Shown in pieces: positions 28,173 through 46,962 of a stretch of DNA of 64,000 nt (position 1 is the first letter of the stretch; each line of letters begins with the position of its first letter). The DNA comes from Candidatus Altimarinota bacterium (GTDB lineage Bacteria > Cyanobacteriota > Cyanobacteriia > Cyanobacteriales > Microcystaceae). Both the position numbers and the translations under genes were made by a program. The notes below the pieces were generated by a model. That model was not told the DNA's origin. It saw only the letters and a list, made by a program, of their open reading frames with translations, and did no database searches. The DNA is taken from assembly GCA_012031035.1 (NCBI GenBank), contig JAAUUT010000012.1, forward strand, positions 1-64,000, given 5' to 3'.

Positions 28173-28409
28173 TTAGCGCATAGTAGGAAGATCGCTAGCG
28201 TGAGGCGAGGAGTTACTGGGAACGTGTTCTTCTGCCGTACTAGGAGCCTCTCCTCCAGCAGCATTTGGCCCTTTTCCTTCTGCTGCATTACGAGCTTCTT
28301 CTAATCCTATCGAGGGGTCGGAATCAATTTCTGCTGCTCTTGCTCCAGCATTTTGAGAAACGTCTTGTTCTTCACTTTGTTGAGGGGAATTGCTTTTTTC
28401 TTGGGTCAT
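28173..28409 (-). CDS. small acidic, low-complexity protein
   Basis: A 78-residue protein rich in Ala, Glu, Ser, Pro and Gly, with no hydrophobic segment and predicted disorder. It is preceded by AGAGGA 8 nt before the ATG, a convincing ribosome-binding site, which is the main support for it being real. I recognise no family. The distribution of Glu and Ala resembles small stress-type proteins of cyanobacteria, but that is only an impression. Confidence 0.5.
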   Translation of the reverse strand: MTQEKSNSPQQSEEQDVSQNAGARAAEIDSDPSIGLEEARNAAEGKGPNAAGGEAPSTAEEHVPSNSSPHASDLPTMR

Positions 28410-30206: not shown

Positions 30207-32143
30207 TTACTTTGTTTCCGAGAACTCAGCATCGATAACATCATCGCCGCTGCTGCCAGTCGAAGAACCAGCACTAGAACCGCCGCCTGTACTACCGTCA
30301 CCGCCGTAGCCGCCACCATCAGCACCAGGTGCGCCGCCACCAGCTTGCTGATAAACGCTCGTACCGATGCTATAAAGAACTTGCTGTAGTTCGGGCATCA
30401 CAGTTTTGATCTTGTCGTCGTTGTCTTGCTCGACTGCTTCTCTGAGATCCTTGATTAAACCTTCTGCTTTGCTCTTATCTGCCGCAGAGATTTTATCTTC
30501 GAGTTCTTTGATTTGCTTGTCAGCTTGGTAAACCAACGAGTCTGCTTGGTTCTTGCGATCGATTTTCTCTCTTCGCTCCTTATCTGCTGCCGCATTTGCT
30601 TCGGCTTCTTTAACCATGCGATCGACTTCGTTATCGGGTAGGGTAGAAGCACCCGTAATGCTGATTGATTGTTCTTTACCCGTTCCGCGATCCTTAGCCA
30701 TGACGTTTAGAATACCGTTGGCATCGATATCAAAGGTTACTTCGATTTGAGGAATGCCTCTGGGTGCGGGAGGAATGCCGTCGAGACGGAAAGTTCCCAA
30801 ACTCTTGTTATCTCTTGACATTTCACGTTCCCCTTGGAGAACGTGAATTTCTACGTTAGTTTGTCCGTCAACCGCAGTCGAGAAAACTTCTGACTTCTTG
30901 GTAGGAATGGTAGTGTTGCGAGGAATGATTTTGGTCATTACGCCGCCCAAGGTTTCCACGCCCAAAGATAGGGGAGTTACGTCTAGCAGTAGAATATCTT
31001 TGACTTCGCCGATGAGAACGCCACCTTGAATTGCTGCACCGACAGCAACGACTTCATCTGGGTTAACGCCTTGGTTGGGGTCTTTTCCTAATACTTTTTT
31101 CACCAGTTCTTGAACCGCAGGAATGCGAGTAGAACCGCCGACCATAACGACTTCATCGATATTTTCTTTGTTAACTTTAGCATCCCGTACAGCATTTTCT
31201 ACAGGAATGCGACAGCGATCGATAAGATCGGCACAGAGTTCTTCAAATTTAGCTCTGGTTAAGGTCGTGTCTAAGTGTTTGGGACCGTCTTGAGTTGCCG
31301 TGATAAAGGGCAAGTTAATTTCAGCTTGAGTAACGCTAGACAGTTCGATTTTGGCTTTCTCTGCCGCTTCAGTCAAACGTTGCAAGGCTTGCTTGTCTTG
31401 ACGCAAGTCGATTCCTTCGACTTTCTTAAACTCTGCTGCTAAGTAATCAACAATTTTCTTATCGAAATCGTCACCGCCGAGGTGGGTATCGCCAGAAGTT
31501 GCTAGAACTTCAAAAACGCCGTCGCCGACTTCTAGAATGGAAACGTCAAACGTACCGCCGCCCAAGTCAAAGACCAAAATGGTTTCGTTACTTTTCTTAT
31601 CTAACCCATAGGCCAGAGACGCTGCTGTTGGTTCGTTGATAATCCGTAGTACTTCTAGACCAGCAATTTTTCCAGCATCTTTAGTTGCCTGACGCTGAGA
31701 GTCGTTAAAGTATGCAGGCACAGTAATGACAGCTTGAGTAACGGTTTCGCCCAAGTATTTACTAGCATCTTCTACCAGTTGCGCAATACCTGCGCAGCGA
31801 TTTCTTCAGGAGAAAATTGCTTGCCCTGCGCCGGACAATCTAATTTGACGTTGCCCGTGCCATCTCGTAAGACTTTGTAAGAAACTTCGGTAGATTCGTT
31901 GGTTACTTCGTCAAATTTCCGTCCGATGAAGCGCTTGACGGAGTAAAAAGTATTTTGAGGATTCATGACTGCTTGACGCTTGGCGATTTGACCCACTAAG
32001 CGATCGCCATTTTTTGCATAAGCAACTACAGACGGCGTTGTCCGAAATCCTTCAGCATTAGCGATAACAGTCGGTTTACCTCCTTCCATTACTGCGATAC
32101 AAGAATTTGTTGTTCCTAAGTCAATTCCAACTACTTTTCCCAT
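30207..32143 (-). CDS. dnaK: molecular chaperone DnaK (DnaK2-like; one frameshift)
   Basis: The ATPase domain begins [20 protein letters not shown] (31772-32143) and continues in the other part (30207-31754) with [20 protein letters not shown] and [13 protein letters not shown]. The peptide-binding domain and a Gly/Ser-rich tail ending [12 protein letters not shown] follow. The parts join at 31779-31780; adding one A (minus strand) turns LRNW-stop into [16 protein letters not shown], the family sequence. Hsp70 chaperones fold and disaggregate proteins with DnaJ and GrpE, which are not nearby. Total about 645 residues. The tail and acidic end resemble the main cyanobacterial DnaK2. An intact gene is expected in the cell. 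Confidence 0.92.
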
Positions 32144-33362: not shown

Positions 33363-34042
33363 ATGCGTATTTTATTGGTTGAAGACGATCTAGAACAACT
33401 CGAACCACTCCACGAAGCTTTATCGGAAGTCGGACATATTGTAGATGGCGCGCAGAATGGAGAAACGGCTCAATGGCTTTTAGGGGAAAAAGACTACGAC
33501 CTGCTGATTTTAGATTGGATGTTACCCGATTTTAGCGGCTTAAATTTATGTCAGCAGTATCGACACTCTGGGAAAACAGCACCCGTACTAATTTTGACGG
33601 CTAAAGACACGATTTTGGATAAAGTTAGTGGATTAGATGCTGGTGCTGATGACTACATCGTTAAACCCGTCGATCTCCTCGAACTACTAGCACGAGTGCG
33701 AGCTTGGGAAGGCGATCGCCTTTATGGCAGGGGGATATACTAAAAATTGCCGATTTACGACTGTATCCAACCAGCCTAACAGTAGAACGCGGTCAGGTAT
33801 CGGTGCAACTATCACCTCGCGAATTTCAGTTACTCGAATATTTTGTTCGTCATCCCCGTCAAGTGTTAAGCCGCAATCAAATCGAACAAGCGTTGTGGGA
33901 ATGGGGAACAGAACCAGAAAGCAATGCTGTATCGGCTTCTGTAAAGCGATTGCGGCAGCGATTGCAGTTACTCAAAGCAGCCGACTCGATTAAAACTATC
34001 TACGGAATGGGTTATCGTTTCGATCCCTGTAATAAGCAGTAA
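33363..34042 (+). CDS. OmpR-family response regulator, RppA-like (one frameshift)
   Basis: The receiver domain (33363-33743) has the acidic pair VEDD, phosphoacceptor Asp51 in LLILDWMLPD and the Lys in DDYIVKPVD. The winged-helix DNA-binding domain (read to 34042) has LSPREFQLLEYFVRHPRQVL and ends KTIYGMGYRFDP. They join at 33704-33705, where one more T restores LARVRALGRRSPLWQGD. The receiver closely resembles RppA-type regulators, which control photosynthesis and metal or redox genes. A strong AGGAGG ribosome-binding site precedes it. The downstream kinase gene survives only as a relic (34052-34144). Length about 226 residues, normal. Confidence 0.85.
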
Positions 34043-34051
34043 GTAGATTTA

Positions 34052-34144
34052 ATGTTTAATCGTAGCCGTCGAAATTTAGCTTGTTAGCTTACCCTTTCAA
34101 TGGGCAGTATTTTAACCATCTGTTTTAATCAGTTAATTCAATAA
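34052..34144 (+). pseudogene. relic of a sensor histidine kinase N-terminus
   Basis: Nine bp after the regulator stop, the frame reads MFNRSRRNLAC, a TAG, then LTLSMGSILTICFNQ. RppB-type kinases that pair with RppA-type regulators commonly start MFNRSRRNLA followed by a membrane helix containing LTLSMGSIL. Only about 25 residues of similarity remain, with a nonsense codon, before an unrelated sequence and the next gene. I infer that the cognate kinase was deleted. Confidence 0.6.
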
Positions 34145-38202: not shown

Positions 38203-38225
38203 GTCATTTTTTCATCACATTTGCT
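38203..38225. promoter_or_regulatory. TCA-box: direct repeat with 11-bp period
   Basis: GTCATTTTTTCATCAC lies here. TCA arms begin at 38204 and 38215, exactly 11 bp apart. The site lies about 75 bp before the P-type ATPase ATG and in the same spacer as the antiporter start. The 16-mer recurs exactly at 41968. Confidence 0.55.
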
Positions 38226-38297
38226 GAGTAGGTTAGCAGTAACAAAACTCGAACGATCGCTTAACAATCTGCCAGGATAGATCTTGGAGTTCAAAAT

Positions 38298-41033
38298 ATG
38301 ACAGCAACCACCCAAAAACCCTTGCCATCGCAACAGTGGCATCATTTGCCAGTAGGGGAAGTTACTCGACATTTAGACAGTAACCCAGAAGCGGGTTTAA
38401 CATCGGCTGAGGTTGCCAAGCGACGAGCGCGTTTTGGTGCTAACGAACTGGTAGGCAAACCGGGTCAAAGTCCTATAGTGCGCTTTCTCCTGCAATTTAA
38501 CCAACCATTGCTGTATATTTTGCTAATTGCAGGGATAATTAAAGCAATCCTGGGAGAATGGGTCAATGCTTGGGTTATTTGGGGCGTAACTTTAATTAAC
38601 GCCATTGTGGGATTCGTGCAAGAATCCAAAGCCGAAAGCGCGATCGCAGCTTTAGCCTCTTCAGTCATAACCGAAGCAACAGCCATTCGAGACGGACAAA
38701 AAGTAAGAATCCCTTCATCGGAAATTGTGCCGGGAGATTTGGTATTACTGACTTCTGGGGACAAAGTACCAGCCGATTTGCGACTCATTAAGGCACGCAA
38801 TCTGCAAATTAATGAATCTGCTCTCACTGGCGAATCCGTTGCTGTGGAAAAAAGCCTGCAAACCCTTGAGGCCGATGCACCGTTGGCTGAGCGAACCAAT
38901 ATGGCTTATGCAGGCAGTTTCGTCACTTTTGGGCAAGGAAAGGGAATTGTCGTCGCGATCGCACAGGAAACTGAAACGGGGCGAATCTCCCAGTTAATGG
39001 AGCAGCAAACTCACCTGAAAACGCCCTTAACTCGCAAATTTGATAAATTCAGCCGTACTTTGCTCTATATCATTCTGGGTGTTGCTGCTCTGACGTTTGC
39101 TGTTGGTTTGGGATACGGTTATTCCTGGATAGAAATGTTCGAGGCTGCTGTCGCTTTAGCAGTGAGTGCGATTCCCGAAGGCTTACCCGCAGTGGTGACA
39201 ATTACTCTTGCGATCGGGGTTTCGCGGATGGCTCGCCGTCATGCCATTATCCGCAAGTTACCCGCCGTGGAAACCCTCGGTAGTGCCACAGTCATTTGTT
39301 CGGATAAAACGGGTACGCTGACTGAAAATCAGATGACCGTGCAAGCGATCTACGCAGGAGGGCAACAGTATCGCGTTAGCGGTGAAGGTTATACTCCAGA
39401 AGGAGAAATCTTTCTCGATGAAACGCCAGTGGAACTCGATGAGTCTCCCGTCCTTCAGGAGTGTTTAATCGCTGGATTGTTATGTAATGACTCTCACCTA
39501 GAAGTCAAAGACGGTCAGTGGAATGTTGTTGGCGATCCCACTGAAGGGGCGTTAATTGTCGTTGCGGATAAAGCAGGATGCAATCGCGACGACTTAGCAC
39601 AAAAGCTACCCAGAATCGATGCGATCCCGTTTGAGTCTGAGTTTCAGTATATGGCGACTTTGCAGGAAAACAGAGAACTAAGCAGCACACAATCCCAAAT
39701 CATCTATGTTAAAGGTTCAGTAGAGTCAATTCTCTCTCGCTCCCAGCAGCAGCTTGATACCCAAAGCAATTTAACGTCCCTCGCTCCAAATATTATCCAT
39801 CGAGAAGCCGAGGCAATGGCAGCGCTGGGTTTACGGGTGCTGGCGTTTGCTAAAAAACTCGTTCCTAACGAGCAAGACTCTGTAGATCATGCAGATATCG
39901 AAGAAGGTCTAATTTTTATCGGTTTGCAGGGGATGATCGATCCGCCGAGACAGGAGGCAATTAGAGCGGTGGCAGCCTGTAAAGCAGCAGGCATCCAAGT
40001 GAAAATGATTACTGGGGATCATGCCGTTACTGCGAGGGCGATCGCGGCTCGTATGGGATTAGAAAAACATGGGGAAGTCCTCGCCTTCACCGGACAGGAA
40101 CTGACGCGCATGGATAACCAAGCACTAGCAGATGCAATCGAAGAAGGGGTAGTGTTTGCTCGCGTCGCACCCGAACAGAAACTACGGCTAGTAGAAGCTT
40201 TGCAGTCAAAAGGTGAAGTCGTTGCCATGACGGGGGATGGCGTTAATGATGCCCCCGCGCTCAAGCAAGCCGATATTGGCATCGCGATGGGAGGTGCTGG
40301 CACAGAAGTTGCAAAGGAAGCAGCAGACGCGATTTTGACCGACGATAACTTTGCTTCGATTGAAGCAGCAGTAGAAGAAGGAAGAACCGTTTATCGAAAT
40401 TTACTCAAAGCGATCGCTTTTATCCTACCCGTCAACGGCGGAGAATCGATGACGATCTTGATTAGCGTGTTGCTTGCCAGAGAGTTACCAATTTTAGCGC
40501 TACAAGTTCTATGGTTAAATATGGTTAATTCCATCGCCATGACGGTTCCTCTCGCTTTCGAGCCAAAGTCAAAACGGGCTATGCAACAACCTCCACGCAA
40601 CCCGAAAGAACCTTTACTTTCTAGTAGTTTATTAAAACGCATCTTAGCCATTTCTGTATTTAATTGGATTCTCATTTTTGGCATATTTGAATGGATACGA
40701 TCCACAACGGGAAATCTTGACTTAGCCCGCACGATGGCAATTCAATCGTTAGTGGCAGGGAGAATTTTTTATCTATTAAGTATTAGTCAATTAGGAACTG
40801 CAATTATTAAAAAGTTTCTAGACAGAAACGAACGAATAACTGATTCCTCTGCTATTATTATTGGGATCGTTGGTGCGGTAATTTTGCAGGTAATTTTTAG
40901 TCAATGGAGCCTGATGAATAATTTATTTTCTACTGCACCATTGAACTTAACTCAGTGGCTAATTTGTTTGTTAGTAGGTTTACCAATGATTTTAGTTGCA
41001 GCTTTGGTTAATCGTTTCGATCCCCTCGATTGA
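38298..41033 (+). CDS. P-type cation-transporting ATPase (P2-type)
   Basis: This 911-residue pump has the N-terminal cation-ATPase domain (LTSAEVAKRRARFGANEL), actuator loop LTGESVAVEK, phosphorylation site CSDKTGTLTENQM, hinge motif TGDGVNDAPAL and about 10 membrane helices. This is the class of PMA1/PacL-like pumps in cyanobacteria, moving Ca2+, Mn2+, Na+ or H+; ion choice cannot be read from sequence here. It converges with the TauE gene 25 bp away. A TCA-box lies in its promoter region. Confidence 0.9.
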   Translation: MTATTQKPLPSQQWHHLPVGEVTRHLDSNPEAGLTSAEVAKRRARFGANELVGKPGQSPIVRFLLQFNQPLLYILLIAGIIKAILGEWVNAWVIWGVTLINAIVGFVQESKAESAIAALASSVITEATAIRDGQKVRIPSSEIVPGDLVLLTSGDKVPADLRLIKARNLQINESALTGESVAVEKSLQTLEADAPLAERTNMAYAGSFVTFGQGKGIVVAIAQETETGRISQLMEQQTHLKTPLTRKFDKFSRTLLYIILGVAALTFAVGLGYGYSWIEMFEAAVALAVSAIPEGLPAVVTITLAIGVSRMARRHAIIRKLPAVETLGSATVICSDKTGTLTENQMTVQAIYAGGQQYRVSGEGYTPEGEIFLDETPVELDESPVLQECLIAGLLCNDSHLEVKDGQWNVVGDPTEGALIVVADKAGCNRDDLAQKLPRIDAIPFESEFQYMATLQENRELSSTQSQIIYVKGSVESILSRSQQQLDTQSNLTSLAPNIIHREAEAMAALGLRVLAFAKKLVPNEQDSVDHADIEEGLIFIGLQGMIDPPRQEAIRAVAACKAAGIQVKMITGDHAVTARAIAARMGLEKHGEVLAFTGQELTRMDNQALADAIEEGVVFARVAPEQKLRLVEALQSKGEVVAMTGDGVNDAPALKQADIGIAMGGAGTEVAKEAADAILTDDNFASIEAAVEEGRTVYRNLLKAIAFILPVNGGESMTILISVLLARELPILALQVLWLNMVNSIAMTVPLAFEPKSKRAMQQPPRNPKEPLLSSSLLKRILAISVFNWILIFGIFEWIRSTTGNLDLARTMAIQSLVAGRIFYLLSISQLGTAIIKKFLDRNERITDSSAIIIGIVGAVILQVIFSQWSLMNNLFSTAPLNLTQWLICLLVGLPMILVAALVNRFDPLD

Positions 41034-41058
41034 TTCCATTGCAAATTAACAATCAAAA

Positions 41059-41844
41059 CTAGGTTGCTGGCTTATGTGATAACTTTAGGGCTGACAACAA
41101 GAGAATTATACCCAGAATAATATACAATAAAGAACTTGATACATATTTTAGAAGATTGGTGCCAATTAATGCTCCAAAAATAGAACCAGATGCCATCGAA
41201 ACGATAAACTCTTGCTCTAATTTAATCTCCTTAAATCTTTGCTGATTTTTATATTTAAATAACCCCATCATAATAGTAGGAATGCTAATAGCAAGACTTA
41301 AACTTCCCGCTAATTTGATATCAATTGCAAATAACAGAACAATTGTTGGGATAATCAACTCTCCTCCTGCTACACCGAGCATACTGCTGAATATCCCGAT
41401 CGCAATTCCTGCAACAAAACCTACAATGATTCTTAATAAGTCTGGAAGTTGCCAACTCCCCACGCTGAAGAGAACATTATGTCCAAGCAGTATGATACTT
41501 ATAAAAACTAGAAAAATGACAACAATTTGAGTTAATTGTCGTTCGTTAATCCGAGTTGCATAACCAACACCAACGTAGGAACCGATAAGAGAACCTGCCA
41601 GAATGTTGAGGATTATCGCTAGATGAGCAATAACATTTTCAAAACCCACAACACCGCCGCGAAAAATCAAGGAAAAAGTGACAGTAACGAGGCTAACAAT
41701 GAGATTAATGATAATCGCTTGTAGGGTATGATACTTAAAAAAGCTAACTAGAACTGGTAAGCGAAACTCAGCACCGCCTAAACCAATAAGACCTCCGAGA
41801 ATTCCCACTAAACCACCCCAAGCAAAGGCCCAAATATTCCGCAT
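41059..41844 (-). CDS. sulfite exporter TauE/SafE family protein
   Basis: This 261-residue protein has about eight hydrophobic helices and the duplicated TauE motif: GILGGLIGLGGAEFRLPVLV in the first half and SSMLGVAGGELIIPTIVLLF in the second. Members export sulfite, sulfoacetate or related organic anions; some act in sulfur assimilation. It starts in the divergent spacer with the beta-barrel gene, which holds a TCA-box at 41968. Confidence 0.85.
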   Translation of the reverse strand: MRNIWAFAWGGLVGILGGLIGLGGAEFRLPVLVSFFKYHTLQAIIINLIVSLVTVTFSLIFRGGVVGFENVIAHLAIILNILAGSLIGSYVGVGYATRINERQLTQIVVIFLVFISIILLGHNVLFSVGSWQLPDLLRIIVGFVAGIAIGIFSSMLGVAGGELIIPTIVLLFAIDIKLAGSLSLAISIPTIMMGLFKYKNQQRFKEIKLEQEFIVSMASGSIFGALIGTNLLKYVSSSLLYIILGIILLLSALKLSHKPAT

Positions 41845-41967
41845 CCTGCTTTAACATTGCTATAAATAGACTGTTTATTATATCTAACTTTAGATAGATG
41901 TTTTCAATTGAGAACCTAAGAAAATTTAGACAAATCTAACTATAGATTTATCCGAATATTAATCATT

Positions 41968-41990
41968 GTCATTTTTTCATCACTTTTCTT
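41968..41990. promoter_or_regulatory. TCA-box: direct repeat with 11-bp period
   Basis: GTCATTTTTTCATCAC repeats the 38203 site exactly. TCA arms begin at 41969 and 41980. It sits in the 335-bp divergent spacer (41845-42179) between the TauE and beta-barrel genes. The motif TTAGATAGATGT is 79 bp upstream (41890-41901). The spacer also holds two copies of ATCTAACTnTAGAT (near 41882 and 41937). Confidence 0.55.
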
Positions 41991-42179
41991 TTTAACACTA
42001 AAAATATCTAAACAAAAACATTAACCGATCGCAAAAAAGTTAAGCATCACAAATATAAAGCTACATCATCTTAATTTTGATGGCTATAGCTAGCGATCGG
42101 TGTTGGTATTTTCTCAACAGGCTAACTAGGAAAAATTGTCTAGCCCGCATTTTGATGTCTTTAGTACAAGGAGAAAACG

Positions 42180-42806
42180 ATGAATTCAAGAGTTTTTTTT
42201 GGTAGTTTTACTACCTTAAGCATGGCGATTTTAACTTTTGGTTTTGGCGGACAAGCCGCTCAAGCTCAAAGTCAAGAATTTTCCTACGAACCATTAGAAG
42301 TTGGGATTCAACAAGCCACACCTAGCCCAGCAACCGATGTTGGAGAAACAGAATTAGCTCAAACAGAAACAAACGTTGAGCCAGGAAGATCGACTCGTGG
42401 TGGTTCTAGCTATATCGGGATTGGTGGCAACATTGGCATTGGTGGCGGTTCGTCAATTGGTGAAGGTAGCTTTACCGTCTTCAGTAAAATCGGATTGACA
42501 GAAAGTATCTCTCTGCGGCCATTGGGAGCGATTACCGATGACCCGACCATCCTCATTCCCGTCACCTATGACTTTAATCCGCGAACTGTAGATCCCGTCG
42601 AACAGGTAGATGCTTTTTCTATTTCTCCCTATGTAGGCGCTGGCGTTGGAATTGCGACGGGCGATGATGCAGACGTTGGTTTTTTACTGACGGGTGGTGT
42701 TGATATTCCTATCAATCCTAAATTTACGGGAGTGGCAGGAGTTAACGTGCTTTTCGCTGATAGTACCGATGTCGGAATAAATCTTGGAATTGGTTACAAC
42801 TTCTAG
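42180..42806 (+). CDS. outer-membrane beta-barrel protein
   Basis: This 208-residue protein has a signal peptide (about 1-28, ending QAAQAQ). A linker and about eight short alternating beta-strands follow (SSYIGIGGNIGIGGGSSIGEG, FTVFSKIGLTESISLRPLGA, ISPYVGAGVGIATG, FTGVAGVNVLFADSTDVGIN), ending in an aromatic residue (LGIGYNF), the usual signal for outer-membrane insertion. No enzyme motif is present. A good AGGAG ribosome-binding site precedes the ATG. The function is unknown, but an envelope role is likely. Confidence 0.7.
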   Translation: MNSRVFFGSFTTLSMAILTFGFGGQAAQAQSQEFSYEPLEVGIQQATPSPATDVGETELAQTETNVEPGRSTRGGSSYIGIGGNIGIGGGSSIGEGSFTVFSKIGLTESISLRPLGAITDDPTILIPVTYDFNPRTVDPVEQVDAFSISPYVGAGVGIATGDDADVGFLLTGGVDIPINPKFTGVAGVNVLFADSTDVGINLGIGYNF

Positions 42807-42996
42807 GAAGGTTGAGGTTGGATAACTTCTTTGCTAAAGATGCGATTGCGCTACGCTAACGCAAATGGCTTTGCTACTGCCCTGTTAAGTATTGCCTAAG
42901 TTTCCTATAAGGGTAGGAGTTCTCGCTTTTCGCAGCTTGTCATCAGGCATAGCGTAAAGCGATCGCATCATCAAAAGTTTTACACGCTGACGATTG

Positions 42997-43018
42997 TCAC
43001 TGTTCGGTCATTTTTGCC
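42997..43018. promoter_or_regulatory. TCA-box: direct repeat with 11-bp period
   Basis: TCACTGTTCGG begins at 42997 and TCATTTTTGCC at 43008, 11 bp apart. The box lies about 40 bp before the start of the secreted OB-fold gene at 43059. It is the weakest of the four boxes. Confidence 0.45.
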
Positions 43019-43058
43019 TCTCAAACTAAAAAATAACAAGTTTTAAAGGTTATTGCCA

Positions 43059-43465
43059 ATGAATCAGCGAATATTTACTTTTTCAATCTTAGCTGTGTCA
43101 ATCTCTGCATTAACAATCCCCGTCTTCGTACAAGCACAAACCACCCGAATCGAACAGCTACAGCAACGTTCTCGCGGTACTACTATATCGGGCGAAATTG
43201 TATCCGTTGTTGGTAACGATTTTATTCTTAGCGACGGAAGCGGAGAAATAATTGTCGATGCGGGACCGACTTGGTGGCATAACATCGATGTCAAACCAGG
43301 GGAACAGGTAACAGTGATAGCGAAGTCAGCAAAAAAAGCAACGAGTTTGATGCGTTTTCAATTACCCGTGGCGACGGTTCTACTATCGACATTCGTCCGG
43401 CGGACGGTCCGCGCCTTGGCAAGGGGTCATCATCGAGGTCGCGATCGCATGCGTCAGGAGAGTAG
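43059..43465 (+). CDS. secreted OB-fold (BOF-like) protein (one frameshift)
   Basis: The signal peptide (about 1-27, ending VQAQT) is followed by TISGEIVSVVGNDFILSDGSGEIIVD, a single beta-barrel OB-fold of the YgiW/BOF type. As written the frame goes out after VIAKSAKK. Adding one A to the seven at 43331-43337 gives SNEFDAFSITRGDGSTIDI and then RPADGPRLGKG, ending at the TAG 43463-43465. Total about 136 residues. Members in enterobacteria respond to envelope stress and bind cationic or nucleotide-like ligands. The ATG at 43059 follows AAAGGTTATT. Confidence 0.7.
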
Positions 43466-43553
43466 ATAATTGAATCATCCCAAACCGAGATGATAAAACT
43501 TATTGAGGAATAAATAGACGAACAAAACAAAAATAAAGTTAAAATCTGTGCAG

Positions 43554-43614
43554 GGTAGATAATGCCTAAGATAACTTATGGATAAGATCTATGAGATTTT
43601 TGGCATTGCCTACC
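43554..43614. repeat. 61-bp palindromic element with 13-bp inverted ends
   Basis: GGTAGATAATGCC (43554-43566) pairs with GGCATTGCCTACC (43602-43614) at 11 of 13 positions, and the interior has a further short CTTAT/ATAAG pairing. It could be a terminator-like or mobile (MITE-type) palindrome between the OB-fold gene and the broken AI-2E gene. Confidence 0.5.
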
Positions 43615-43680
43615 ATTTTGCATTTAATTACATTTTATCATTGTTAACAATAACCAATTAATTATTAATTTAAAGCGATT

Positions 43681-44189
43681 GTGAATGAACCAACGGTTAA
43701 AACTTTTTGGAATGATTTTTGGAAGCATTTGAGTAATTCCAAGCTAATTCGCTATTTATTACTGTTTGCCCTTGGCTGGGCAATTCTTCAAGTTTTAGCT
43801 TATTTTGAAACGGTTATTGTTACTTTTATTTTTGCTGCTATTGTCGCTTTTTTACTCAATTATCCCGTACAGTGGATTTCTCGTTTTTTACCGCGCACCC
43901 TGGCATTGGAGCTACTATCGGAATTAGTTTAGTTTGTTTAATTGCATTGCCTCAAGGAGTTTTGCTTGCTTTTAAAGTATTAATTGGTTGCATTCTGCTA
44001 CAGCAAGTCGAAGAAAACTTGCTCATGCCTCGCATTATGCAAGGTTCAATTAATATGAATCCCGTGATTATGTTTTTTGCTTTATTAGTTGGGGTTAAAG
44101 TTGCTGGGTTAGTTGGAGTATTTCTATCGATTCCAGTAGCAGGAGTGTTGATTAGTTTGTTTGATATTAAAGAAATGCAAGGAAGTTAA
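43681..44189 (+). pseudogene. AI-2E family transporter, internally deleted
   Basis: The first 70 or so codons (from GTG 43681) encode the N-terminal helices of an AI-2E protein, up to YPVQWISRFLP. The text then jumps, out of frame, at about 43895-43905 to HPGIGATIGISLVCLIALPQG and the last helices. A family member has about 200 residues between these points, including the central loop. Around 169 codons of an expected 340-370 remain, so this is a deletion pseudogene rather than a base-call artefact. The intact relative at 34185 is only partly similar. Confidence 0.8.
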
Positions 44190-44235
44190 ATTATTAAAAA
44201 TAATAAATCTTTGCTAATGATGGAGTAAGATAATT

Positions 44236-45252
44236 TTGCGCAATTTAAATGATATTCGCGATCGCTTTAAAAACTTTAGAAATAAAACGATTACTCCACA
44301 GCAACTCGAACAAATTAGAAACGGACTAGTAGAAGAGTCTACAGCCGATCTGAATTATCTAACTTTAATTGTTGGTTCTTGTATTATTGCCACCTTGGGA
44401 TTGCTTTCTAATAGTGCTGCTGTAATTATTGGTGCGATGATTATTGCACCCTTAATATTACCCATTCGAGGGCTAGCATTTGCTTCTTTGGAAAGCAATA
44501 TTATTCTTTTTCGTAAATCGCTAAATGCTATATCGATCGGAACAATTCTAGCAATTATTTTAGCTTTATTCATTGGTTATTTAGTCAGATTGCCAGAATT
44601 TGGTAGCGAAATTAATAGCCGTTCTCGACCGACTTTACTTGACTTAGGAATTGCTGTTGCTGCTGGAGGAATTAGCGGTTTTGCAAAAGTCAAACCCAAA
44701 ATTTCTGGTAGTTTAGCAGGAACCGCGATCGCAGTTGCTTTAATGCCACCAGTTTGCGTTATTGGTTTAGGTTTATCCCACGGAAATTGGTCGCTTAGTA
44801 TCGGTGCAACCTTGCTTTATTTGACTAATTTACTAGGAATTATTCTTTCTTGTATGCTGGCTTTTTTAATAGTCGGTTGTACGTCCTTCAAGCGTGCGAG
44901 TAAAGCGCTTGGTTTTACGATAGCTGTTACAGGCTTACTTTTAATTCCATTAGGAATGAGCTTTTTTCAGTTGCTCAGACAAACTAGATTAGAAGCAAGT
45001 TTAAGACAAGTATTACAAAATCGAACCATTACCTTTCAGCGAATCATCATTCTTAATAGCGATGTTAATTGGTTAACTAATCCCCCCGAAGTTCGTCTTA
45101 ATGTTCGCACGACAGAACCAATAACGCCAAGACAAGTCATGTTTCTAGAAGACTTTTTAAAAAAAGAAATGGGTCAACCATTTACCTTAATTTTTGAAGT
45201 GGGGAGAATTGAGGAAGTTAGACGAGAAGAGTTAAATAATTCTAACCATTAG
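44236..45252 (+). CDS. DUF389 family membrane protein
   Basis: This 338-residue protein starts at TTG after GGAGTAAGATAATT. It contains the DUF389 core with LLSNSAAVIIGAMIIAPLILPI, AKVKPKISGSLAGTAIAVAL and MPPVCVIGLGL, five to six helices, and a soluble C-terminal region. The family is widespread and uncharacterised, and is often near stress or ion-transport genes. It follows the deleted AI-2E gene by 46 bp on the same strand. Confidence 0.82.
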   Translation: MRNLNDIRDRFKNFRNKTITPQQLEQIRNGLVEESTADLNYLTLIVGSCIIATLGLLSNSAAVIIGAMIIAPLILPIRGLAFASLESNIILFRKSLNAISIGTILAIILALFIGYLVRLPEFGSEINSRSRPTLLDLGIAVAAGGISGFAKVKPKISGSLAGTAIAVALMPPVCVIGLGLSHGNWSLSIGATLLYLTNLLGIILSCMLAFLIVGCTSFKRASKALGFTIAVTGLLLIPLGMSFFQLLRQTRLEASLRQVLQNRTITFQRIIILNSDVNWLTNPPEVRLNVRTTEPITPRQVMFLEDFLKKEMGQPFTLIFEVGRIEEVRREELNNSNH

Positions 45253-45254
45253 CA

Positions 45255-45274
45255 ATTGCGATCCAGATCGCAAT
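45255..45274 (+). terminator. inverted repeat after the DUF389 gene
   Basis: ATTGCGATC (45255-45263) and GATCGCAAT (45266-45274) form a 9-bp stem 3 bp after the stop. The downstream sequence is AT-rich but has no T run, so terminator function is tentative. Confidence 0.5.
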
Positions 45275-45516
45275 AAATTATAGGTAAGCTTTTCTTGTCC
45301 TAACTCAACAGCAATAAGTTTTTTTGAGTTTCACTTTTATTCATTCCAACCTACTACTATTAGGACGAGCGCTAGGCGATTAAAGTACCTCTAAAAAGAA
45401 AATACAAAAACTAATAGCCTTCTGCATCAATCATTAGATAGATGTAATTGTTTTTACAAAAAATTAGTCTAAATATCAAAAATTGCGTTTATAAAATTTT
45501 GCGTTAAGTATTGCTG

Positions 45517-45538
45517 TCATTTTTCGTTCATTTTTTCT
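45517..45538. promoter_or_regulatory. TCA-box: direct repeat with 11-bp period
   Basis: TCATTTTTCGT begins at 45517 and TCATTTTTTCT at 45528, 11 bp apart, about 80 bp before the ferric-reductase-like start. TTAGATAGATGT (45434-45445) is 83 bp upstream, repeating the arrangement at 41890/41969. The rest of the 366-bp spacer 45253-45618 shows no gene. Confidence 0.55.
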
Positions 45539-45618
45539 ATCAAGAATTAAATTCTTAAGTTGCGATCGCAACGGTGACTCTTTAAGGTTTGTTGAGAGAC
45601 GTTTGGAGGTGAGCTACT

Positions 45619-46962
45619 ATGAGAAGTCTATTGATGAAAAACCCTTTGATAATTGGTTTGTTGTGGATAGGTGCGTATCTAATAATCGTTCTTTTCCCCC
45701 TACTCATTCTACTTTTCTATCCGCCGACATCCAATGAAGGGCGAAGTTTTTGGCTAGAATTTTCTGTTGCTCTCGGTTTCATTGGTTTAGCAATGATGGC
45801 AATGCAGTTTGCGCTAACTGCTCGCATTAACAACATTGAAGCTTCTTATGGAATCGATTTAATTCTTCAATTTCACCGTTACACTTCCATCGTTGCATTT
45901 ATCTTCATCCTCGCTCATCCCATTATTCTATTTATCGATAATCCACAAACGCTGCAACTGCTGAACTTCCTACAAGCTCCCTGGCGAGCGAGGTTGGCGG
46001 TTATTGCGACTTTAGCACTCATCGCGATCGTCGTCACTTCTATCTGGCGAAAACGGCTTAATATTCCATACGAACCTTGGCGCATCCTACATGGAATCTT
46101 AGCAGTCATTGCCGTTGGCTTTGGTTTGGGACACGCTTTAGGTGTGAGTAACTACTTGGGGTTGTTTTGGAAGGCTGTTCTATGGATTGGCATTGCTTTA
46201 GTTGCCTTGTGGCTGTTAATTTACGTCCGCTTGGTTAAACCCTGGTTCATGCTCAAAAAACCGTATTTAGTAGAAGCAGTTATTCCTCAACGGGGAAATG
46301 TTTGGAATTTAGTCTTGCGTCCCTTTGGACACGAAGGAATGAACTTTCAACCCGGTCAATTTGCATGGCTGACTTTGGAAATCTCGCCATTTAGAATGCG
46401 AGAACATCCCTTTTCAATGGCTTCGAGTGCCGAAAACCGCGATCGCATTGAATTTGGCATTAAAGCAGTGGGTGACTTCACTAATACTATTAAAGACGTG
46501 AAACCGGGGACAAAAGCTTACCTCGACGGCGCTTATGGGGTTTTTACGAGCGATCGCTATGAAGATACGGCAGGATTTGTCTTTATTGCTGGAGGAATTG
46601 GCATTACGCCGATTTTTAGTATCATTCTTACCTTAGCCGAACGCCAAGACGAACGACCTCTGTTGTTAATTTATGCGAGTAAAACCTGGGAAGACATTAC
46701 TTATCGCGAAGAACTTGAGGAGTTGAAGCAGAAATTAGACCTTACTATCGTCCACGTTCTCAGAGAACCTCCCGATGATTGGTCGCAAGAAACGGGATAC
46801 GTCGATAAAGAACTGCTCAAACGCTATATTCCCAAGCGTCCTGCCACTCGTAATTACTTCATCTGTGCCAATCCAAAAATGATGGATGCGGTGGAAGTCG
46901 CTTTGTACGAGTTGGAAGTCCCCGTTACCAACGTCCATCTGGAACATTACAACATTGTTTGA
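45619..46962 (+). CDS. ferric-reductase-like transmembrane oxidoreductase
   Basis: This is a 447-residue protein. The N-terminal six-helix ferric reductase domain (about 1-215) has His residues in LQFHRYTSIVAF, LAHPII, RILHGILAV and FGLGHALG, the heme-ligand pattern of the FRD/NOX superfamily. An FAD domain (REHPFSMASSAE) and an NAD(P) domain (IAGGIGITPIFSII, FICANPKMM) follow. It would carry electrons from NAD(P)H through FAD and heme across the membrane to iron or oxygen. A GGAGGTGAG ribosome-binding site precedes the ATG, and a TCA-box is in its promoter. Confidence 0.88.
   Translation: MRSLLMKNPLIIGLLWIGAYLIIVLFPLLILLFYPPTSNEGRSFWLEFSVALGFIGLAMMAMQFALTARINNIEASYGIDLILQFHRYTSIVAFIFILAHPIILFIDNPQTLQLLNFLQAPWRARLAVIATLALIAIVVTSIWRKRLNIPYEPWRILHGILAVIAVGFGLGHALGVSNYLGLFWKAVLWIGIALVALWLLIYVRLVKPWFMLKKPYLVEAVIPQRGNVWNLVLRPFGHEGMNFQPGQFAWLTLEISPFRMREHPFSMASSAENRDRIEFGIKAVGDFTNTIKDVKPGTKAYLDGAYGVFTSDRYEDTAGFVFIAGGIGITPIFSIILTLAERQDERPLLLIYASKTWEDITYREELEELKQKLDLTIVHVLREPPDDWSQETGYVDKELLKRYIPKRPATRNYFICANPKMMDAVEVALYELEVPVTNVHLEHYNIV

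Follow-up and report, generated by a model that had tools for sequence, protein, structure and literature searches.

An 11-bp direct repeat as the predicted operator of an OmpR/PhoB-type regulon for ion transport and envelope genes in cyanobacteria

Introduction

The PHO box of Escherichia coli is built from two direct repeat units of 11 nt with the motif CTGTCAT (PMC4415409), and the authors of another study knew of no OmpR/PhoB sites other than direct repeats to which dimers bind in tandem (PMC4832192). For PhoB and PhoP, such a box and its occupation by a tandem dimer are both documented (PMC4415409, PMC4832192). In cyanobacteria, the nearest named relative of the regulator examined here is RppA/NrsR, with its kinase RppB/NrsS (Synechocystis sll0797/sll0798). 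Nickel export and pigment genes are the reported targets of RppA/NrsR, and AAMAWCTCYYWCCCC is the motif reported for Synechocystis RppA (PMC13421787).

We analyzed a stretch of 64,000 nucleotides (hereafter the window; contig JAAUUT010000012.1 of assembly GCA_012031035.1), in which a preliminary description had noticed four promoters with a TCA-box direct repeat of 11-bp period. It had assigned the repeat to an OmpR/PhoB-type regulator, pointed to a regulator gene at 33363 next to the cluster, and proposed a regulon for ion, metal and envelope stress. Our analysis indicates that the four sites are very probably operators of a two-component regulon governed by a clade of OmpR/PhoB-type regulators that is sister to RppA/NrsR. 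We infer that these regulators bind the sites, are phosphorylated, and activate rather than repress the genes behind them.

Results and discussion

Four rare sites with an exact 11-bp period

The element is (T)GTCAYTTTYNRTCAYWTTT, a 20-letter sequence consisting of two direct half-sites. All four repeats were found where the preliminary description had placed them, and all are on the + strand. Operator 1 (38203..38222, GTCATTTTTTCATCACATTT) precedes a P-type ATPase gene, matches the motif exactly with a position weight matrix (PWM) score of 29.5, and has orthologous sites at loci L061, L108, L109 and L145 of other genomes. Operator 2 (41968..41987, GTCATTTTTTCATCACTTTT; PWM 28.0) precedes a beta-barrel gene and has an orthologous site in L061 at 9662; the 16-mer common to these first two sites is GTCATTTTTTCATCAC, as had been noticed before. 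Operator 3 (42996..43015, GTCACTGTTCGGTCATTTTT; PWM 22.6) stands before a gene for a BOF/OB-fold protein, with an orthologous site in L061/L102, and operator 4 (45516..45535, GTCATTTTTCGTTCATTTTT; PWM 23.8) before a ferric-reductase-like gene, with an orthologous site in L113. The half-site period is exactly 11 bp in four of four window sites and in 106 aligned sites, in agreement with the distance of about 10–11 bp between half-site centres that defines OmpR/PhoB-type operators.

The pattern GTCAY-N7-TCAY occurs four times in the window, and these occurrences are the four promoters. A loose TCA-box with up to three mismatches is found in the window at background frequency (58 found versus 62 expected), and therefore the strict form of the motif alone is informative. 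Its pattern, GTCAYTNTTNNNTCAYNTTT, is matched exactly at five places in the 6.05-Mb genome (253 contigs), and four of these are the window sites. The fifth match (C12:80737) lies within a T-run before the gene of a 179-aa membrane protein that appears RDD-like by eye, and the site at 28405, weak with a matrix score of 12.1, was discarded as an instance of the motif. The four sites are far beyond chance. Because the strict pattern was drawn from the four sites themselves, rarity in their own genome is not proof by itself, and proof was therefore sought in other genomes.

A -10 box at a fixed distance

Behind each site, at a constant distance, stands a -10-like box that the preliminary description had missed. 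Among the 106 aligned sites, A is found at position +27 of the site in 91%, T at +31 in 88% and C at +30 in 59%. This -10 box (xAnnnT) lies 6 bp behind the second half-site, so that the repeat covers the -35 region. The A27/T31 pair is present at all four window sites, where the predicted -10 boxes on the + strand are TAGGTT (38229..38234), AACACT (41994..41999), CAAACT (43022..43027) and AAGAAT (45542..45547) for operators 1 to 4, respectively. Transcription starts can thereby be predicted to within a few bases, near 38241, 42006, 43034 and 45554. The pair accompanies 121 of 130 sites in regulator-bearing genomes, whereas where the regulator is absent it accompanies 2 of 15 (p = 4e-11). An open frame of at least 120 aa on the same strand starts within 420 bp of 135 of the 148 sites, as against 52 reading the opposite way. 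Because of the strand and the fixed -10 box, we assigned the window sites to the rightward genes. The ATPase and beta-barrel genes consequently remain behind sites 1 and 2 as previously described, while the divergent antiporter and TauE genes, which had been listed with them, do not belong to these sites.

The fixed distance to a -10 box could also be explained if the element consisted of -35 and -10 sequences read by an alternative sigma factor instead of being an operator. We regard this as highly improbable, as sigma factors do not need a tandem repeat of 11-bp period, the -10 box is of the ordinary sigma-70 kind, and the sites cluster around a response-regulator/kinase pair (see below). 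The architecture resembles that of the E. coli Pho box, which likewise repeats an 11-nt unit containing GTCA in direct orientation over the -35 position, has a -10 box at a short fixed distance and is read by a regulator of the OmpR/PhoB family. Compared with the Pho box of PhoB, however, the spacer, the outer bases and the regulator clade are different, and the predicted targets are ion transport and envelope genes instead of phosphate genes. One promoter (G306:C332, 4122-4163) contains three exact matches in 11-bp steps, namely a run of at least four half-sites.

Conservation and the tie to one regulator clade

The source genome is that of a cyanobacterium, for which Hydrococcus sp. Prado102 is the closest named relative found. 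Orthologues of the gene at 42180 have a 14/15 match upstream on the coding strand in three relatives (Hydrococcus L061, Myxosarcina L065 and Scytonema L088), and in the remaining 31 loci from this orthologue search the 700 bp upstream are free of such a match. In Hydrococcus (L061), a site precedes each of the ATPase, MgtE, beta-barrel and BOF genes. At the family level, the genus of the window is the only one in which the motif is common. Conservation upstream of orthologues, whose absence the preliminary description had named as a refutation, was observed in relatives.

In distant genomes, clusters of sites repeatedly adjoin one gene pair encoding a response regulator (MRILLVEDDxEQLEPL...) and a kinase (MFNRSRRNLARWFTLSMGSIL...). 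We searched the same 388 cyanobacterial genomes with both a profile of this regulator (A1) and the motif, using the reversed pattern as a control. Regulator-bearing genomes contain 111 sites versus 12 reversed matches, and the other genomes 27 versus 36. Two or more sites were found in 24 of the 53 genomes with a strong regulator match versus 3 of 335 others (p = 1.7e-20), whereas the reversed pattern is not linked to the presence of the regulator (p = 0.35). Forty of the 138 sites are located within 10 kb of a regulator gene, where 0.65 would be expected. The co-occurrence of the motif with one regulator clade and its clustering around the regulator gene agree with the earlier assignment of the repeat to an OmpR/PhoB-type regulator, whose binding is predicted.

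A held-out test was designed to avoid choosing loci by the motif. In 20 loci of the regulator taken from genomes that lack any exact match, the position matrix, whose use on related genomes had also been suggested, gave 11 hits with scores of at least 18; the reversed matrix gave 0, and permuted matrices a mean of 0.07. Chance matches in AT-rich promoters, which the background frequency of the loose TCA-box in the window might suggest, are ruled out by the genome-wide rarity, the conservation, the held-out test and the reversed and permuted controls, and we assign them a negligible probability.

Predicted targets across cyanobacteria

We defined targets by clustering the genes downstream of the sites, together with Pfam and other checks. 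The largest clusters are those of the beta-barrel protein (10 sites) and an Anabaena-type sensory rhodopsin (10 sites, 54-142 bp before the genes), followed by an amino-acid permease (9 sites), the BOF protein (8), the ferric-reductase-like protein (7), MgtE and the P-type ATPase (5 each), a glucose-dehydrogenase-like SDR, a holin-4 protein and an alpha-amylase-type enzyme (4 each), and rhomboid and fasciclin proteins (3 each). One member of the rhodopsin cluster (L158) was checked and belongs to Bac_rhodopsin, with 1xio as the best PDB match (E 4e-136). Genes for Anabaena sensory rhodopsin are predicted targets in many genomes, and the window itself has no sensory rhodopsin gene with a site. 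In L198, L199 and L205 the gene order is conserved: a site precedes a rhodopsin gene that diverges from a P-type ATPase gene, and the regulator-kinase pair follows, so that the sensory rhodopsin gene adjoins its putative regulator. The predicted target set fits a role in ion balance and envelope stress. The motif is conserved upstream of orthologues and its predicted targets are ion transport and envelope genes, in line with the ion, metal and envelope stress regulon proposed in the preliminary description. The regulon predicted from these sites extends far beyond the window, is found in many families of cyanobacteria and takes in sensory rhodopsin.

The CpxAR envelope-stress system has an OmpR-type regulator, as does the regulon described here. 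Likewise, a site in L197 precedes the gene of an LTXXQ (Spy/CpxP-type) protein, which is followed by a DegP-like protease. However, the regulator clade, the sensor domain of the kinase and the targets of CpxAR are different, and the regulon described here is not a member of that system.

The half-site also resembles the CTGTCAT motif of the E. coli PHO box and has an equal 11-nt unit, as would be expected if SphR, the phosphate regulator that corresponds to PhoB in cyanobacteria, bound them as Pho boxes and the genes were part of the phosphate regulon. This explanation is very unlikely given the predicted targets, which are a cation ATPase, MgtE, rhodopsin, a permease and envelope proteins. 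Phosphate-starvation genes are absent from the recurrent target clusters, with a single PstS-type gene by eye among the singletons (L223). Moreover, the presence and position of the motif follow the RppA-like clade, for which the co-occurrence was computed. OrrA of Anabaena may be considered as the regulator in view of the alpha-amylase genes among the targets; a search of the OrrA literature, the key OrrA paper being outside its reach, found no OrrA motif. CopR of Synechocystis, which binds TTCAT repeats, was also considered as the regulator and was rejected because its half-site differs.

A clade separate from RppA/NrsR

The regulators of the clade are of the OmpR/PhoB type and are near to, but separate from, RppA/NrsR. 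Intact members score 250-268 bits against the NCBIfam RppA model NF041734, just above its cut-off of 250, and the NCBI pipeline would name them RppA; the split window gene scores 137 and 97 bits. One could accordingly suppose that the regulator is RppA/NrsR itself and that the sites belong to the known RppA regulon. Bona fide RppA of other family members, however, scores 365-401 bits against the same model. In a tree of 91 regulators, the 71 clade members lie on one side of a branch with support of 100/99, and 12 RppA sequences are found on another branch. The partner kinases of the clade reach 256-299 bits against the RppB model NF041735 and fail its cut-off of 400. The loci of bona fide RppA contain no GTCAY box (best matrix score 6.7) and carry TTTCAT repeats instead, and the Synechocystis RppA motif AAMAWCTCYYWCCCC does not resemble GTCAYTTTYNRTCAYWTTT (PMC13421787). 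Identity with RppA/NrsR is therefore very unlikely.

Ten of the 12 RppA/NrsR loci (L235-L246) carry an exact TTTCAT-N5-TTTCAT repeat, accompanied by a -10-like box whose offset equals that of the window motif. This repeat was never found in 278 kb of clade loci and may be the operator of RppA/NrsR. The two systems share the 11-bp repeat and the offset of the -10 box, but differ in half-site (TTTCAT versus TGTCAY), in branch and in recognition helix, which reads roughly SNA(I/V)(T/S)xxVR(R/K)LRQ in the clade against SNVVAAQVRLLR in RppA. A shared geometry together with a different half-site and a different helix is as expected if these regulators read these boxes.

We see an even chance that the clade now labelled RppA is a separate envelope/ion stress system with its own operator code, that the sister clades keep one promoter geometry while their half-sites (GTCAY versus TTTCAT) split with the recognition helices, and that sensory rhodopsin is under stress control. 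The two sister clades offer a well-defined setting in which to study changes in the DNA specificity of response regulators.

A model for regulation and its weak points

The motif, its fixed spacing to the -10 box, its conservation, the tie to the regulator clade and the target genes are computational results. Building on them, we propose that the partner membrane kinase phosphorylates the response regulator, which would then bind as a head-to-tail (tandem) dimer to the TGTCAY/RTCAYWTTT half-sites 11 bp apart. As the operator occupies the -35 position with the -10 box 6 bp behind it, the bound dimer would bring in RNA polymerase directly, in the manner of PhoB at Pho boxes. Such class-II-like activation would switch on genes for cation transport and cell-envelope repair. 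Our guess for the signal is ion imbalance or envelope damage.

Several observations speak against this regulon. The counts treat kin genomes as independent samples, so the p-values are too good. Some regulators of the clade have no site within reach (e.g. L204, L207, L209 and L213). Furthermore, the regulator gene usually lacks a site in front, and for this reason autoregulation may be missing from the loop or depend on a variant site. Finally, the regulator gene of the window is frameshifted and its kinase gene is lost.

The literature, searched without most subscription journals, contained nothing relevant on the motif or on what regulates mgtE or sensory rhodopsin, and the predicted stress regulon is apparently real and undescribed. 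It is ordinary in kind, being an OmpR/PhoB-type regulon with a Pho-box-like operator; its assignment, breadth and targets are new. For widespread cyanobacterial two-component systems outside the RppA branch that databases would file as RppA, the analysis supplies an operator together with the layout of its promoters and a set of targets, and it connects conserved transporters and envelope proteins, as well as sensory rhodopsin, with a single regulator.

State of the system in the source genome

The regulator gene (33363..34042, + strand) belongs to the motif-associated clade and lies next to the cluster, as the preliminary description had stated, but it is not a working copy as it stands. It is read in two frames (33363-33743 and 33704-34042) with a frameshift near 33706, and intact orthologues exist in L165, L166 and L177. 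Behind it, only a remnant of the partner histidine kinase is left (34052..34144, + strand; 31 codons with two in-frame stops), and L165 of the relative G022 has an intact kinase at this place. The frameshift may be a sequence error, because other genes of the window, dnaK and the BOF gene, have also lost their frame. The dnaK gene is read in two pieces on the minus strand (30207-31754 and 31772-32143), which hints at assembly sequence errors or decay. The loss of the kinase is not a sequence error. Two relatives (G020 and G021) keep the regulator without an adjoining kinase, and each has a second complete pair elsewhere.

Because the gene at 33363 has a frameshift and little is left of its kinase gene, the working regulator for the window sites may be a paralogue. 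The genome has two paralogous regulators, both intact, on contigs C72 and C100, and these may serve the sites. The first pair (L175, G000:C72, 772-2762) has its kinase split into two frames by a frameshift. The second (L180, G000:C100, 4104-7111) is intact with a CHASE3-type kinase and adjoins a BOF protein gene. No motif site is found near either pair.

Predicted target genes in the window

All four predicted targets are on the + strand. The first (38298..41033) encodes a P-type cation ATPase, recognized by Pfam, of the PMR1/SERCA-like group; its best NCBIfam model is TIGR01522, below the cut-off of that model. The second (42180..42806) encodes a secreted outer-membrane beta-barrel-like protein of 208 aa with no Pfam family; ten independent sites precede genes of its cluster. 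The secreted BOF (OB-fold) protein (43059..43469) matches Pfam PF04076 weakly; compared with the orthologue in L184, its frame is lost in the last third and the continuation is open in another frame. The fourth gene (45619..46962) encodes a ferric-reductase-like membrane flavocytochrome with the Pfam domains Ferric_reduct, FAD_binding_8 and NAD_binding_1. Comparison of 41059-42180 in the window with 6731-10001 in L061 shows that MgtE, a small gene and the site of MgtE, located between TauE and the beta-barrel gene, were lost in the window genome and kept in the relative.

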